Shown here one piece after another: positions 19,354 to 26,479 of a DNA stretch of 64,000 nucleotides. Source of the stretch: Haloplanus salinarum (GTDB taxonomy: Archaea; Halobacteriota; Halobacteria; Halobacteriales; Haloferacaceae); NCBI RefSeq assembly GCF_024498175.1, contig NZ_CP101823.1, positions 806,001 to 870,000 of the forward strand, written 5' to 3'. A program made the translations under genes and the position numbers. Position 1 is the stretch's first letter. Every line of letters begins with the position of its first letter. Under the pieces are notes generated by a model. The model was not told the origin of the DNA, made no database searches, and saw nothing but the letters and a program-made list of their open reading frames with translations.

Positions 19354-21202
19354 TCACCACCGCGAAGTTGTACGCCGCGTGAACCAGGGTTGCGGGCACC
19401 AGCGCCGCCAGATACCAGTTGCGGGAGCGACTCGCGCCGAGCGCCGCGATGCTCGTCGTCGTCGCGTGGAGGACGAGCGGGGCGAGCAGGAGCCCGAGTG
19501 CGGCCGCCGAGCCGACGCCGACCGGCGTGAACGCCGCCCGGCCGAGCGCGAGGTCGGGGAGTCCGACGAACTGGACGACGGCGGTGAGCTTCTCGCCGAG
19601 GAAGAAGCCGAGGCCCGAGAGCGAGCCGAGGACGAGCGCGGTCCGCAGACCGCGGCGGTCGGCGAAGTCGTTCTCGAAGCCCGCGTAGACGTGGACGCTC
19701 TTTGCCACCTCCTCGACGCCGGCGACGACGAGCAGGAGGAGGGGAATCGAGACGTCCACGGGGAGGACGAAGAGGACGGCGATGGCGAGCAGTTCGGCGA
19801 TGAACACGAAGGGAATCGAGAGCGCGCTCAGGACGGCCATCGAGCGTGGCCCGGCGATCCGGCTGTCGAGCGCGTCGAGGAACTTCAGCGGGACGGGCCG
19901 CTGGGTGAACATGTCCTCCTCACGGTAGACGCCGACGCCGAGGGTGAAGAGGACGGCCGCCCCCACGTAGAAGGGGCCGGTCGAGAAGGCGTACTGGACG
20001 GCGGTGACGCCGGTACCCTGCAGGTCGTGGACGACGAGCGTCAGCGGCGAGATGAGGGCGATTGGCGTCACGTTCGTGAAGATGGCAGGGACGAAGGCAT
20101 AGGAGGTGAGAAAGACGGAGATGGCGACGGTGACGAAGGTGAGTTCCTTGAACGACCGGGCGAACATGCCGCCGACGAAGGTGGCGGCGAGATAGAGGGC
20201 GGCAATGGGCGCGACGGCGGCCACGCTCGTCACGCCGCCGCCGATGGCGACGGCGATGACAGCGGTTAACCCCACGAGCGTCGCCAGATACGGCAGGGTC
20301 TTGCCGGCGACGATGGCCGCCGGGGAGACGGGCGCGACGAGGAGGAGTTCGCCCCGCCGGTTGATCCGCTCGTTGAGGATGCTGCTCCCGTAGGGCTGGA
20401 TGACGAAGTTCATGGGGACGAAAAAGACGAACGCGAGGACGAGCGCACCGAAGGGAAAGGGCGGGGAGATGTCGGCCGGCGAACCGGAGTTGCCGCCACC
20501 CAGGAGGTCGCCGCCGAGAAACGGCACGCCGAGCGAGCCGGAGTCGCCGCCCGCGGCGATGCCGTCGCCTGAGTCGCTCGAATCGGCGGTCCCGTCGTCC
20601 CTATCCTGACCGGTCCCGCCCCCGTCGGCAGTCGGATCGTCGGCGGTACCTCCGTCCCCGTCGCCCCCGTTATCTGTCGTCCCGTCCCCGTCAGTGCTGG
20701 CGGTGGCGGAGCCCCCCGTACCGCCCCCGCGATCCGTGTACTGGAGCGTGACGACGACCGGGAACGCCGCGGAGACGTTCCCCTCCTCGCCCATCCGCCC
20801 CAGGTTGTGTCGACGGACGGCGCTCCGGAACGTCGACAGCGCGGCCTCGGCCTTCCGGGAGTCGGCGACGTAGAACCGGTCGCCGCGGACGACCACCTCG
20901 ACGCTGCGGCCGAGCGAGTCGAGGTCGGCGTCACGGGCCGCGAGCGCCGGACTCTCCCGGACCACCTCGTGGTAGGGGCTGTCGGTCGCGACGCCGATCC
21001 GGTAGACGTCGCGGTCGAGGGCGGCGCCGCCGGTCGCGAGGGTCGCCCCGCCGACCGCCCCCGCGAGGAGGAGGGCGACGAGTCCCAGCGCCGCCGTCCG
21101 CCGGTCGACGACGCCGGCGCTCCGCCCGACCTCCCAGCGGGCGATACGGGCGACCGCGCGAAGGCCGTCGCGGAGTCGGTCGGACGGCGACGACGCCGTC
21201 AC
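19340..21202 (-). CDS. ABC-2 permease fused to a PrsW-like membrane protease domain
   Basis: 620 aa. The first half is an ABC-2 permease: an N-terminal TM, an extracytoplasmic domain with a Gly/Asp/Thr-rich low-complexity insert (about residues 155-230), and a membrane block with SSILNERINRRGELLLVAPV. The second half (from about residue 430) is PrsW-like: VAGVEEVAKSVHVYAGF with the EExxK motif, LSGLGFFLGEK, and histidines in LVLHATTTSI and VHAAYNFAV. PrsW proteases process membrane-bound regulators. Fusion to an exporter subunit suggests cleavage coupled to export. It overlaps the ATPase gene by 4 bp (ATGA). Confidence 0.85.
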   Translation of the reverse strand: MTASSPSDRLRDGLRAVARIARWEVGRSAGVVDRRTAALGLVALLLAGAVGGATLATGGAALDRDVYRIGVATDSPYHEVVRESPALAARDADLDSLGRSVEVVVRGDRFYVADSRKAEAALSTFRSAVRRHNLGRMGEEGNVSAAFPVVVTLQYTDRGGGTGGSATASTDGDGTTDNGGDGDGGTADDPTADGGGTGQDRDDGTADSSDSGDGIAAGGDSGSLGVPFLGGDLLGGGNSGSPADISPPFPFGALVLAFVFFVPMNFVIQPYGSSILNERINRRGELLLVAPVSPAAIVAGKTLPYLATLVGLTAVIAVAIGGGVTSVAAVAPIAALYLAATFVGGMFARSFKELTFVTVAISVFLTSYAFVPAIFTNVTPIALISPLTLVVHDLQGTGVTAVQYAFSTGPFYVGAAVLFTLGVGVYREEDMFTQRPVPLKFLDALDSRIAGPRSMAVLSALSIPFVFIAELLAIAVLFVLPVDVSIPLLLLVVAGVEEVAKSVHVYAGFENDFADRRGLRTALVLGSLSGLGFFLGEKLTAVVQFVGLPDLALGRAAFTPVGVGSAAALGLLLAPLVLHATTTSIAALGASRSRNWYLAALVPATLVHAAYNFAVVSALG

Positions 21203-22095
21203 TGCGCCCCCCGGGGGCCGTCGGCCGTGTCGGCGGCCAGATCCAGGAAGATCTCCTCCAGACTCGGTTCGTCGGTGCGGATGTCGACCACCTCGCCCCC
21301 CGCCTCGCCGGCCGCCTCGCGGACCCGCTCGACGGCGTCCATGTCCGCGACGGTCGAGACGTGGCGGTCGCCGGCCGGCTCCGTGTCGAACGCGGGGACG
21401 GGGACCGACGTGAACACGCGGTACTCGGTGGTGCCGTACTGCTCGCGGATCTCGGGGACGGTCCCGCGGGCGACGATCTCGCCGCGGTTCATGATCGCCA
21501 CCCGGTCACAGACGCTCTCGACGTGATAGAGGTTGTGCGCGCTGAACAGCACCGTCTTGCCGGCGTCGCGGAGTTCGCGGACGAACTCCAAGACGTAGTT
21601 GGTCGTCAGCGGGTCGAGCCCGCTCGCCGGTTCGTCGTAGACCAACACGTCGGGGTCGTTCACCAGCGATCGCGCGATGGCGACCTTGCGTTTCATGCCC
21701 TTGGAGACGTCGCCGAGGCGGCGGTCGCGATGGTCGAGTTCGAGGCGGTCGAGTGTCCCCTCGATCCGCTCGGTCGCCGTCTCGCTCGGGACGTCGTAGA
21801 GGTCGGTGAAGAAGTCGAGATACGAGCGGGCGGTCATGTCCTCGTAGAGCGGCGACTCCTCGGGGAGGAAGCCGAGCGAGCGGCGCATCTCGGGATCCTC
21901 GGCGTCGAAGCCCGCGACGGTCGCCGAGCCGTCCGAGGGCTCGATCAAGCCGGCGATCATCTTCAGCGTCGTCGTCTTCCCGGCGCCGTTCGGGCCGACG
22001 ATGCCGAAGATCTCGCCCCGATCCACGTCGAACGTACTGCCGACGACGGCGGGGAAGTCGCCGTATGTCTTCCGGAGGGAGTCGGCCTCGATCAT
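21199..22095 (-). CDS. ABC transporter ATP-binding protein (exporter type)
   Basis: 298 aa. Walker A is GPNGAGKTTTLKM and Q-loop FLPEESPLYEDMTARSYL. The signature is degenerate, VSKGMKRKVAIARS in place of LSGGQ. Walker B is DVLVYDEPASGLDP, H-loop SAHNLYHVES. An additional about 85-residue C-terminal domain, ending SLEEIFLDL, is typical of DrrA/NatA-type exporters. First gene of a three-gene operon with two ABC-2 permeases. ATG 22095 (MIEADSLRKTYG) is chosen because the Arg-rich frame upstream is antisense of the neighbouring gene. Confidence 0.93.
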   Translation of the reverse strand: MIEADSLRKTYGDFPAVVGSTFDVDRGEIFGIVGPNGAGKTTTLKMIAGLIEPSDGSATVAGFDAEDPEMRRSLGFLPEESPLYEDMTARSYLDFFTDLYDVPSETATERIEGTLDRLELDHRDRRLGDVSKGMKRKVAIARSLVNDPDVLVYDEPASGLDPLTTNYVLEFVRELRDAGKTVLFSAHNLYHVESVCDRVAIMNRGEIVARGTVPEIREQYGTTEYRVFTSVPVPAFDTEPAGDRHVSTVADMDAVERVREAAGEAGGEVVDIRTDEPSLEEIFLDLAADTADGPRGAQ

Positions 22096-22142
22096 CCCTC
22101 GGGGGGAGGGACGGCGAGGGGTTAAACGCACGGCTCGCAGAA

Positions 22143-22883
22143 TCAGTCGTGATTCTCCTCGACGACGTCGATCCGCTCGCGGAGCCACGCGGCCGCGGCG
22201 TCGACCGTCGCCTCGTCTTCGGCCGTGATCTTCAGTCGGTTCCGATCGCCGCTGCTCGGGTAACTCCCGACGGTGACGTCGAACCGCTCCCGGACGCCCG
22301 CGAGCGCCTCGACCATCGATCCCTCGGGCTGTGGAGTGTAGAGCGTCGTCGAGAGGGCGTCGCCGCCGAACTCGCCGGCCACTAGTTCGAAGAGCGCGCG
22401 CATCTCCGCGGGCACGCCCGGGAACGCGTAGACGTCCCCGAGGACACAACCGGGGCAGAGCCCCTCGGAGTTGACCAGCGGGCGACTCCCCTCCGGTAGC
22501 GCCGCCCAGGCGTCGACGTCGATGTCGAGGTCGTGGGCCTCGACCAGGTCGGGGTTTCGCTCCCGGTAGGTGGCGACCGTCTCGATCACGTCCTCCCGGA
22601 CGGCGGGGGCGACGACCAGGTCGCGGTCGAACGCGTCGGCGATGGCGTCGGCGGTCACGTCGTCGTGGGTCCCGCCCAGCCCGCCGGTGACGACGACGGC
22701 GTCGAACCGGTCCGACCACTCGCGGACCGTCTCGGCGATCAGGTCGCGGTCGTCCGGGACGGTGAGGATGCGTGCGACCGACGCGCCCGCCGCCGTCAGC
22801 CGTCCCGCGAGCCACGTCGCGTTCGTGTTCTCGGTGTCGCCCGCGAGCACCTCGTCGCCCACGGTGAGGATGGCGACTTCCAT
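22143..22883 (-). CDS. CinA-family molybdopterin-binding domain protein
   Basis: 246 aa. MEVAILTVGDEVLAGDTENT and VVVTGGLGGTHDDVTADAIA are the MoCF/CinA N-terminal signatures. The C-terminal part (VYAFPGVPAEMRALFE) is standard for the short archaeal form without the nicotinamide-deamidase domain. Related proteins hydrolyse ADP-ribose or NAD-derived pyrophosphates. ATG 22883 gives the canonical start; the 17 residues upstream are non-homologous. It lies 47 bp upstream of the ABC ATPase gene. Confidence 0.9.
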   Translation of the reverse strand: MEVAILTVGDEVLAGDTENTNATWLAGRLTAAGASVARILTVPDDRDLIAETVREWSDRFDAVVVTGGLGGTHDDVTADAIADAFDRDLVVAPAVREDVIETVATYRERNPDLVEAHDLDIDVDAWAALPEGSRPLVNSEGLCPGCVLGDVYAFPGVPAEMRALFELVAGEFGGDALSTTLYTPQPEGSMVEALAGVRERFDVTVGSYPSSGDRNRLKITAEDEATVDAAAAWLRERIDVVEENHD

Positions 22884-23071
22884 CGCTCGTCTCCATGGTG
22901 GCCGCCACCAAAAGGCGTCTGGATCGGCGGTCACGCGGACGGCTGCCGGCTGCGGGGCGACCGGATTCCCGGCCCCTCCCCGGCGTCACAGTAACGGTAA
23001 AGGCGATGTAGTGTCACGTGTCCAATCTATCGGGTGGCCACGACGGTCGCCGGACGACGGGACTGCCTACC

Positions 23072-24707: not shown

Positions 24708-24886
24708 GTCCGCTCCTGTGCGGGGAACGACTGTAAGGGTAGCGACCGCGAAGCGAGCGGACGCATCGGTCGACGTCGTCGCCGTTCGACGGCACGTAGC
24801 CCCCACCGCTCCGGTGGGATCCGTCCCTCCTCCCTTCGCGACCCCTCGTTTTATTTGGGTTTCCCTCGGCATACCGTCTGTCTCGA

Positions 24887-26479
24887 ATGGTGGGCCCCGA
24901 TCAGCACGAACGGATTCCGGCGGCCGTGTCGCCCCTCTCGATAGCCGACTTCGATTACGAGGCACTGACCATCGGTGAACGGATCGGCACCGGAGGCGAC
25001 GCGGACGTGTATCTGGCGACCGTCGTCCGCGACGGGACGGAGTTCCCGGTCGCGGTGAAACAGCCCCGGTTCGAGGGGACGCTCCACCGCCGCGTCGTCG
25101 AGGCGTTCGAGGCGGAGGCCGAAACCTGGGCCCGTCTCGACGACCACGACAACGTCGTGTCGGTGTACGCGTGGGGAACGGATCCGCTCCCGTGGATGGC
25201 ACTGGAGTACATGGACGGCGGAACGCTCGACGCGAGGCTCGGGGCCGAGGACCCCGCCGAGGCGCTCTGGCTGGCCGGGCGCATCGCCGAGGGTGTTCGT
25301 CACGGGCACCGTCACGGTGTGGCACATCTCGACCTCAAGCCGACGAACGTCCTGCTCCGGGAGACGCCACCGGAGACGTGGCCCTATCCGAAGGTGAGCG
25401 ACTGGGGGCTGGCGAAGCTCCTGCTCGATCACTCGAACAGCGTCGAGGGGTTCTCACCGGCGTACGCGGCACCGGAACAGTTCGACGCGGACGAGTACGG
25501 CGGGACGGACGACATCACCGACATCTACCAGCTCGGCGCGGTGGTGTACGCCCTGCTGACCGGCGAGCCACCCTTTACCGGATCGTCGGCGGCCGTGATG
25601 CGAGGCGTCCTCCAGGAGCGTCCGGTGCCGCCCTCCGAACGTCGGCCGTCGCTGCCACCGGCGGTCGACGAGGTGGTGATGACGGCACTGGCAAAGCGGA
25701 AGGCCGACCGATACGACGGCGTGTTGCCGATGCGAAACGAGTTGGATCGGCTGTTCGAGGCGACCGTCGCCGACACGAGCGGTTCCGTCGCGGGCGCGAC
25801 CGCCGGAGCGGCGGCCGATCCCTTCGAGAACGCGGCGAGAGCCAACCAGCACGGCGGTGGCGCCGAGCGAACGGAAACGGGCGTGTCGTCGGAGTCGAAG
25901 TCGTCCGAGAACGAGAGCGAAGGTGGCGGGTTCGTCACCCGTCGACGTGTCCTGGGGGTTCTGGGTGTTGGCGTCGTCGGTGCGGGAGGGTGGCTGACAC
26001 GGGCGGAACTCGGTGACGATCGAAGCGGCGCGGCGGGAGTGCCCGCCGAGGATACGGCGACACCGCCGCCGCCGACACGGACGGCGACCGATACCCCGGA
26101 GCCGACGTCGACGGCGACGGCCACGGCGACGTCCACGCCGGCCGGCGAGGCGGACGCGACGATCACCGTGGGCCCCGGCGGCAGCCTCCAGTTCGAACCG
26201 GAGACGACTGCCGTCTCGCAGGGCGACACCGTCGAGTTCGTCTTCGACTCCGGCGGCCACAACGTCTCGGGCCACCCGGACGCCGCGAGCCAGGTGGAGC
26301 TTCCGGAGGGTGCGGAGCCGTTCGCGAGCTACGACACCTCCGCCGCCGACGTCAACCACGTCTCGCTCAACGAGGCCGGGACGACTTACCGGCACACGTT
26401 CGAGGTTACCGGCCAGTACACCTACGTCTGTGTCCCCCACGCGTCCTCGGGGATGGTCGGCAACCTCACGGTCCGGTGA
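24887..26479 (+). CDS. protein kinase fused through a Tat-like TM segment to a halocyanin domain
   Basis: 530 aa in one uninterrupted frame. Residues 30-300 are a Hanks-type Ser/Thr kinase: glycine loop GTGGDADVY, lysine in VAVKQPRF, catalytic loop HLDLKPTNVLL (HxD present), DWG instead of DFG, and APEQFDADEYG. An Ala/Ser/Glu linker follows. TRRRVLGVLGVGVVGAGGWL (about 349-368) looks like a halocyanin Tat signal or membrane anchor. After a Thr/Pro linker, residues 425-530 form a type I copper domain with HNVSGH, YVCVPH and SSGM ligands. No start codon precedes the signal-like segment, so it is a true fusion: cytosolic kinase, outside cupredoxin. TATA-like TTTTATTT lies about 33 bp upstream. 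Confidence 0.9.
   Translation: MVGPDQHERIPAAVSPLSIADFDYEALTIGERIGTGGDADVYLATVVRDGTEFPVAVKQPRFEGTLHRRVVEAFEAEAETWARLDDHDNVVSVYAWGTDPLPWMALEYMDGGTLDARLGAEDPAEALWLAGRIAEGVRHGHRHGVAHLDLKPTNVLLRETPPETWPYPKVSDWGLAKLLLDHSNSVEGFSPAYAAPEQFDADEYGGTDDITDIYQLGAVVYALLTGEPPFTGSSAAVMRGVLQERPVPPSERRPSLPPAVDEVVMTALAKRKADRYDGVLPMRNELDRLFEATVADTSGSVAGATAGAAADPFENAARANQHGGGAERTETGVSSESKSSENESEGGGFVTRRRVLGVLGVGVVGAGGWLTRAELGDDRSGAAGVPAEDTATPPPPTRTATDTPEPTSTATATATSTPAGEADATITVGPGGSLQFEPETTAVSQGDTVEFVFDSGGHNVSGHPDAASQVELPEGAEPFASYDTSAADVNHVSLNEAGTTYRHTFEVTGQYTYVCVPHASSGMVGNLTVR

Follow-up and report, generated by a model that had tools for sequence, protein, structure and literature searches.

A haloarchaeal gene joining a Hanks-type kinase, a twin-arginine anchor and a near-copy of the cell's free halocyanin

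The kinase–copper gene and its locus

The window analyzed here (64,000 nucleotides of the Haloplanus salinarum chromosome, genome G000) contains a gene whose product comprises, from N to C terminus, a protein kinase, a hydrophobic segment headed by twin arginines, a linker of Thr/Pro type and a domain with a type-1 copper site (Table 1). A preliminary description had read it as one uninterrupted frame joining a kinase, a signal-like helix and a cupredoxin, and the frame is indeed free of internal stops. Both halves scored above the curated Pfam cut-offs: Pkinase matched residues 29–236 (E = 5e-30; 105 bits against 31.7) and Copper-bind (PF00127) residues 429–529 (E = 8.2e-16; 58.7 bits against 21.2). 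These matches, with the motifs and copper ligands described below, support the reading of a Hanks kinase of the receptor type that bears a blue-copper domain as its ectodomain. A putative TATA-like element lies upstream of the start codon; in haloarchaea the leader is usually short or absent.

Table 1. Features of the fusion gene and its upstream region (window coordinates)
Feature	Position	Strand	Basis or remark
Kinase, RR anchor and blue-copper fusion gene, 530 aa	24887..26479	+	Single open frame (ATG 24887, TGA 26479); syntenic G003 ortholog
Putative TATA-like promoter element, TTTTATTTG	24849..24857	+	~30 nt 5′ of start codon; read from sequence
Hanks-type Ser/Thr kinase domain, residues ~27–300	24965..25786	+	Pfam, PknB matches, motifs, ω 0.23
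K58	25058–25060	+	Kinase motif read from sequence
D149	25331–25333	+	Kinase motif read from sequence
DWG (residues 172–174)	25400–25408	+	Kinase motif read from sequence
APE (residues 195–197)	25469–25477	+	Kinase motif read from sequence
Juxtamembrane stretch, variable	25787..25936	+	ω 0.89; includes in-frame GTG codon 333 (25883–25885)
Twin-arginine (Tat-type) hydrophobic anchor, VTRRRVLGVLGVGVVGAGGWLTR	25934..26002	+	RR and G/W core unchanged between kinases whose ectodomains differ
Linker, Thr/Pro/Ala-rich	26003..26140	+	Sequence; low-confidence coil in model
Probable gene-conversion tract	26080..26475	+	95.3% identical to free halocyanin gene on the same chromosome (383/402 identities); tree; dS
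Type-1 copper (plastocyanin/halocyanin-like) domain	26141..26476	+	Pfam, invariant ligands, model, fold match
H458	26258–26260	+	Copper ligand
C515	26429–26431	+	Copper ligand
H518	26438–26440	+	Copper ligand
M523	26453–26455	+	Copper ligand

The kinase carries the complete Hanks-type motif set (K, HxDxKxxN, DxG and APE), with IGTGGDADVY as glycine loop and HLDLKPTN at residues 147–154; the K, HxD and DWG motifs noticed earlier are thus joined by APE and the glycine loop. From its sequence the domain is predicted to be catalytically active. Among solved structures, those nearest to it in sequence are of mycobacterial PknB. The match to the Stk1/PknB PASTA kinase model (NF033483) reached 181 bits, below the cut-off of 450, and Pfam found no PASTA domain in the fusion protein.

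Within the anchor, the twin arginines are residues 352–353, and the hydrophobic segment is moderately hydrophobic (mean hydropathy 1.45 over 19 residues). The full-length model predicts the kinase well and the anchor and linker poorly, the anchor not forming a confident helix. The twin arginine directly precedes this segment, as in a Tat signal anchor, and [STN]RR is kept in all ten of the RR-anchored haloarchaeal kinases described below. The protein would span the membrane with its kinase in the cytosol and its copper domain outside, a predicted topology strengthened by the retention of the twin arginine in 10 of 10 anchors and by the other ectodomains being of exported kinds.

A second Haloplanus species (G003) has a full-length, syntenic ortholog that is 69% identical. 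Both genomes share the order ABC genes, cinA-like gene, 3-hydroxyacyl-CoA dehydrogenase, kinase, class I fructose-bisphosphate (FBP) aldolase and FBPase, the neighbor names being ones we assigned by reading the sequences. Between the two species, the kinase (ω 0.23) and membrane segment (ω 0.14) are under purifying selection; ω is 0.89 in the juxtamembrane stretch and 0.47 in the copper domain. A chance join is excluded by this ortholog together with the low ω of kinase and membrane segment. A full-length relative at the same chromosomal place also excludes a sequence error as the source of the joined frame. The preliminary description had argued against two adjacent genes because no start codon preceded the signal-like segment. 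That argument fails, since an in-frame GTG does come before that segment, as codon 333 in H. salinarum and codon 342 in the G003 ortholog; its conclusion nonetheless survives, as the conserved synteny of the ortholog and the pattern of selection rule out two genes, or an error, as the main reading.

The GTG bears on a different possibility, that of a precursor yielding two products: the internal Tat signal would be cleaved, or the GTG used as a start, giving a separate halocyanin and a kinase on its own. Both species have a GTG ahead of the twin arginines, and AxA-like residues past the anchor (SGA-AGV and ANA-AGV), which would suit such processing. We nevertheless regard it as distinctly improbable: the domains are joined with neither gap nor stop, no promoter-like element was seen upstream of the GTG, and the fusion lacks the lipobox of the free halocyanin. 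The anchor, moreover, is under strong purifying selection and is common to kinases with other ectodomains.

The fusion occurs in two of the 12 Haloplanus genomes. Six others have the dehydrogenase and aldolase genes near each other with the kinase absent, and no kinase remnant was found at the locus in the ten non-carrier genomes checked. The gene was therefore either inserted in G000 and G003 or cleanly lost elsewhere. ABC-2 exporter genes lie three genes from the fusion in both carriers (the ATPase is window ORF 21199–22989, − strand). Homologous exporter genes lie directly upstream of a pseudokinase–halocyanin gene in another haloarchaeon, G214 (L153:880–6694, + strand). In G149, the sequence read near its kinase–halocyanin gene contained no such genes. 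This proximity could be due to chance.

The copper domain and the free halocyanin

H458, C515, H518 and M523 have plastocyanin spacing and are invariant across 17 aligned homologues, confirming the full His/Cys/His/Met ligand set of the preliminary description. A model of the copper domain (112 residues) has a mean pLDDT of 93.6 and, by fold comparison, matches pseudoazurins and plastocyanins with E of about 1e-9, so that the PF00127 score, the ligands and the cupredoxin fold all coincide. The name halocyanin fits this copy only loosely. The domain shares 94–95% identity, and its ligands, with a free lipoprotein of the blue-copper type encoded in the same genome, but it scores 46 bits against the NCBIfam halocyanin model TIGR03102 (cut-off 93.8), below which the free copy (50.3) also falls. 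The G149 fusion passes that model at 262 bits. All six fused copper domains, from G000, G003, G149 and G214, retain the four ligands, which suggests that copper binding by them is probably under selection.

The free H. salinarum halocyanin carries a Tat signal of its own at the N terminus, together with a lipobox, and is not joined to a kinase. In nine Haloplanus genomes the free halocyanin is followed by a 306-aa, Tat-signal-like protein with no Pfam match and then by a PQQ-type dehydrogenase, which in seven of the nine was read over only about its first 140 codons; this conserved set occupies L061:645–4060 (− strand). From the gene order, and from the role of halocyanin as a one-electron carrier of haloarchaea (PMC8305020), the free protein is probably the electron acceptor of the dehydrogenase.

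Between the orthologous fusions of G000 and G003, the copper domains share only 71% protein identity. The fused domain of H. salinarum is thus far closer to its own free halocyanin than to its ortholog, which indicates that the fused domain has probably exchanged sequence with the free gene by gene conversion. In a tree, the fused and free G000 copies join with support of 97/95. The synonymous divergence (dS) between them is 0.077, compared with 0.43 between the two species' orthologous free genes and about 0.76 in the kinase portion of the fusions. The tract has its 5′ edge within a Thr/Ala-rich repeat common to the fused and free genes. A similar closeness is seen in G149, where the first fused halocyanin matches that genome's free gene at 93.7% identity over 395 nt and the second matches it at 86.7%.

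The simplest history is an ancestral fusion whose 3′ end was converted after the species split. The free gene is conserved across the genus, from which we infer that transfer went from free to fused. Re-fusion at the same place is an alternative, and the near-identity could reflect merely recent copying. A separate recent fusion in each Haloplanus species is less likely, because the match to the free gene is confined to the 3′ tract; the gene order, kinase, anchor and early linker are common to both species.

Related kinases and other fusions in haloarchaea

We searched 12 genomes of the genus, 99 of the family, up to 214 of the order and up to 146 of the sister family, with thresholds at which divergent fusions could be missed. 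Halocyanin fusions were rare, with few others besides the two Haloplanus carriers among the several hundred haloarchaea searched. The same architecture, which the preliminary description had proposed to seek in other haloarchaea, turned up as the one syntenic ortholog and as fusions in two genera of another family: G149 encodes a kinase followed, in the same order, by two TIGR03102 halocyanins, and G214 a degenerate kinase with two halocyanins. A contig scan returned only one Haloplanus halocyanin and distant kinases.

The H. salinarum genome encodes over a dozen homologous kinases. Most of those whose architecture was read have other domains at the N terminus, often a Tat-signal PQQ propeller, and the kinase at the C terminus. 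Ten members found have the minority order: a kinase first, next an [STN]RR anchor whose core is Gly-rich, and last an ectodomain. Besides the halocyanin fusions, they include proteins with a Peripla_BP_6 domain in G000 (L063, frame-broken) and a Laminin_G_3 (LamG) domain in G003 (L073), and a divergent set with Peripla_BP_6 (G266), SBP_bac_5 (G222), PBP_like_2 (G218) or an ectodomain with no assigned family (G151). Since anchors of this one type carry halocyanins, solute-binding proteins, LamG or an unassigned domain, the RR-anchored kinases appear from their sequences to be a modular receptor family with swapped ectodomains. Kinase domains are weak or degenerate throughout the divergent set (G214, G266, G222, G218 and G151). 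The degenerate look of the G214 domain suggests that catalysis is dispensable in some family members.

A quick tree of the kinases groups those of Haloplanus in a clade with 99% support and places G149 and G214 outside it, G214 on a long branch. A single origin of the kinase–halocyanin architecture is possible. At least two captures of a halocyanin seem likely, because the copper domains also differ in kind.

Several other kinase genes were noted. L063 (L063:4397–6882, + strand; G000:C1, about 398–401 kb) is split into two frames within its kinase domain and represents either a pseudogene or a sequencing error. L064:3646–7113 (− strand; G000:C1, about 386–390 kb) is a 1156-aa frame joining HSP70 (4e-110) and GrpE (5e-17) to a kinase of the same family, and relatives of its kinase domain lie within long frames in G005 (L105) and G003 (L096). 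Islands crowded with kinases of this family, which bear a wide variety of attached domains, occur at G057:C5 424–477 kb, G156:C2 30–123 kb, G195:C1 28–108 kb and G149:C1 1463–1502 kb (together L110–L123). L171, L173, L175, L192 and L138 are divergent kinase-like proteins with membrane-anchored solute-binding or other ectodomains; several lack the usual catalytic residues and may be pseudokinase receptors.

The rarity and patchiness of the fusions would fit a neutral recent join with no copper-specific role, in which fast-changing paralogous kinases shuffle domains through repetitive linkers. The linker repeats shared by the fused and free genes, and the ω values of the copper domain (0.47) and juxtamembrane stretch (0.89), point the same way. 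We consider this very improbable, given the recurrence in other genera, the ligands retained in six of six domains, and an ortholog kept in two species at a kinase dS of about 0.76.

Possible role and comparison with known systems

We propose, at about even odds, that the fusion is a single-pass receptor kinase whose carrier-like copper ectodomain reports partner contact, redox state or copper loading. The PknB-like catalytic domain would remain in the cytosol, and the internal Tat-type signal anchor would place the folded type-1 copper domain outside on its flexible Thr/Pro linker. As a near-copy of the cell's free halocyanin, that domain could be docked, reduced or oxidized by the same partners, and the resulting contact, redox state or copper loading would be reported to the kinase. 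By analogy with PknB-type kinases, the likeliest trigger would be docking or clustering by a partner, leading to kinase dimerization and trans-autophosphorylation. Blue-copper sites change little on redox, which makes such docking or clustering likelier than a shape change at the copper; we know of no path by which the redox state of the copper would activate the kinase. Solute-binding and LamG ectodomains on the same RR anchor are the usual make-up of receptors and support the receptor reading. Weighing against it are the modest hydrophobicity and poorly modeled helix of the anchor, the rarity of the fusion, the degenerate kinase of G214 and the chance that the near-identity reflects recent copying.

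Near-identity with the free carrier would keep the partner surfaces matched, and we therefore prefer a sensor that engages partners or samples redox to one that simply senses copper. A more specific form of the receptor proposal, which we put forward only tentatively, makes the copper domain a mimic of the carrier that monitors extracytoplasmic electron flow, a redox sensor coupled to Ser/Thr phosphorylation. Gene conversion would keep the mimic matched to the carrier, and such receptors would have arisen in haloarchaea on more than one occasion. Alternatively, an apo/holo ectodomain could sense extracytoplasmic copper, rather than carrier redox or docking, with the kinase controlling copper handling. 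Retention of the four ligands in every fused domain is consistent with that function. It appears unlikely, however: it leaves the near-copy of the free carrier unexplained, no copper-handling genes were recognized among the immediate neighbors, and type-1 sites bind copper tightly and make poor exchange sensors.

The near-identity would also suit a tethered electron carrier, in which the halocyanin part transfers electrons and the kinase mainly positions or regulates a redox complex, with no signal received. A halocyanin fused to the oxidase subunit cbaD provides a documented parallel (PMC8305020). This reading is rather improbable, as the sister proteins on the same anchor bear solute-binding or LamG domains, pointing to sensing, and the kinase has complete motifs and is under purifying selection.

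The near-copy ectodomain, the probable gene conversion and the swapped-ectodomain family go beyond what the preliminary description could see. In this family a kinase, an RR anchor and a swappable ectodomain form a readable module, one that bears on how archaea use Hanks kinases to sense conditions beyond the membrane. Among its ectodomains is a redox protein whose spectrum can be measured, which opens the control of an archaeal receptor kinase by redox or copper to direct test. The sequences further suggest that gene conversion may keep a sensor matched to its target protein, and the fusions across haloarchaea suggest an unstudied kind of cell-surface signaling concerned with electron flow or copper.

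No kinase–halocyanin fusion was found in the open-access literature, subscription journals being mostly outside the scope of that search. The closest bacterial counterparts are the receptor kinases PknB and StkP, which share with the predicted arrangement of the fusion a cytosolic Hanks kinase, a membrane anchor and an extracytoplasmic C-terminal sensor; the fusion has a Tat-type RR anchor and a blue-copper ectodomain where those have PASTA repeats. The H. salinarum paralogs with a PQQ β-propeller have a homologous kinase domain (about 52–59% identical) and a Tat-type signal, but in the reverse order, with the propeller N-terminal and the kinase C-terminal. L063, L073, L171, L174, L175 and L192 follow the order of the fusion (kinase, [STN]RR anchor, ectodomain) and differ in having solute-binding, LamG or unknown ectodomains and, in several, weak or degenerate kinase domains. 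Free halocyanin lipoproteins, of the plastocyanin/azurin family, share the copper domain and its ligands, whereas their own Tat signal and lipobox, and the absence of a kinase, set them apart. In Halobacterium salinarum, OE_4073R is the halocyanin/cbaD fusion (PMC8305020); it likewise joins a halocyanin to another protein, the partner there being a terminal-oxidase subunit rather than a kinase.
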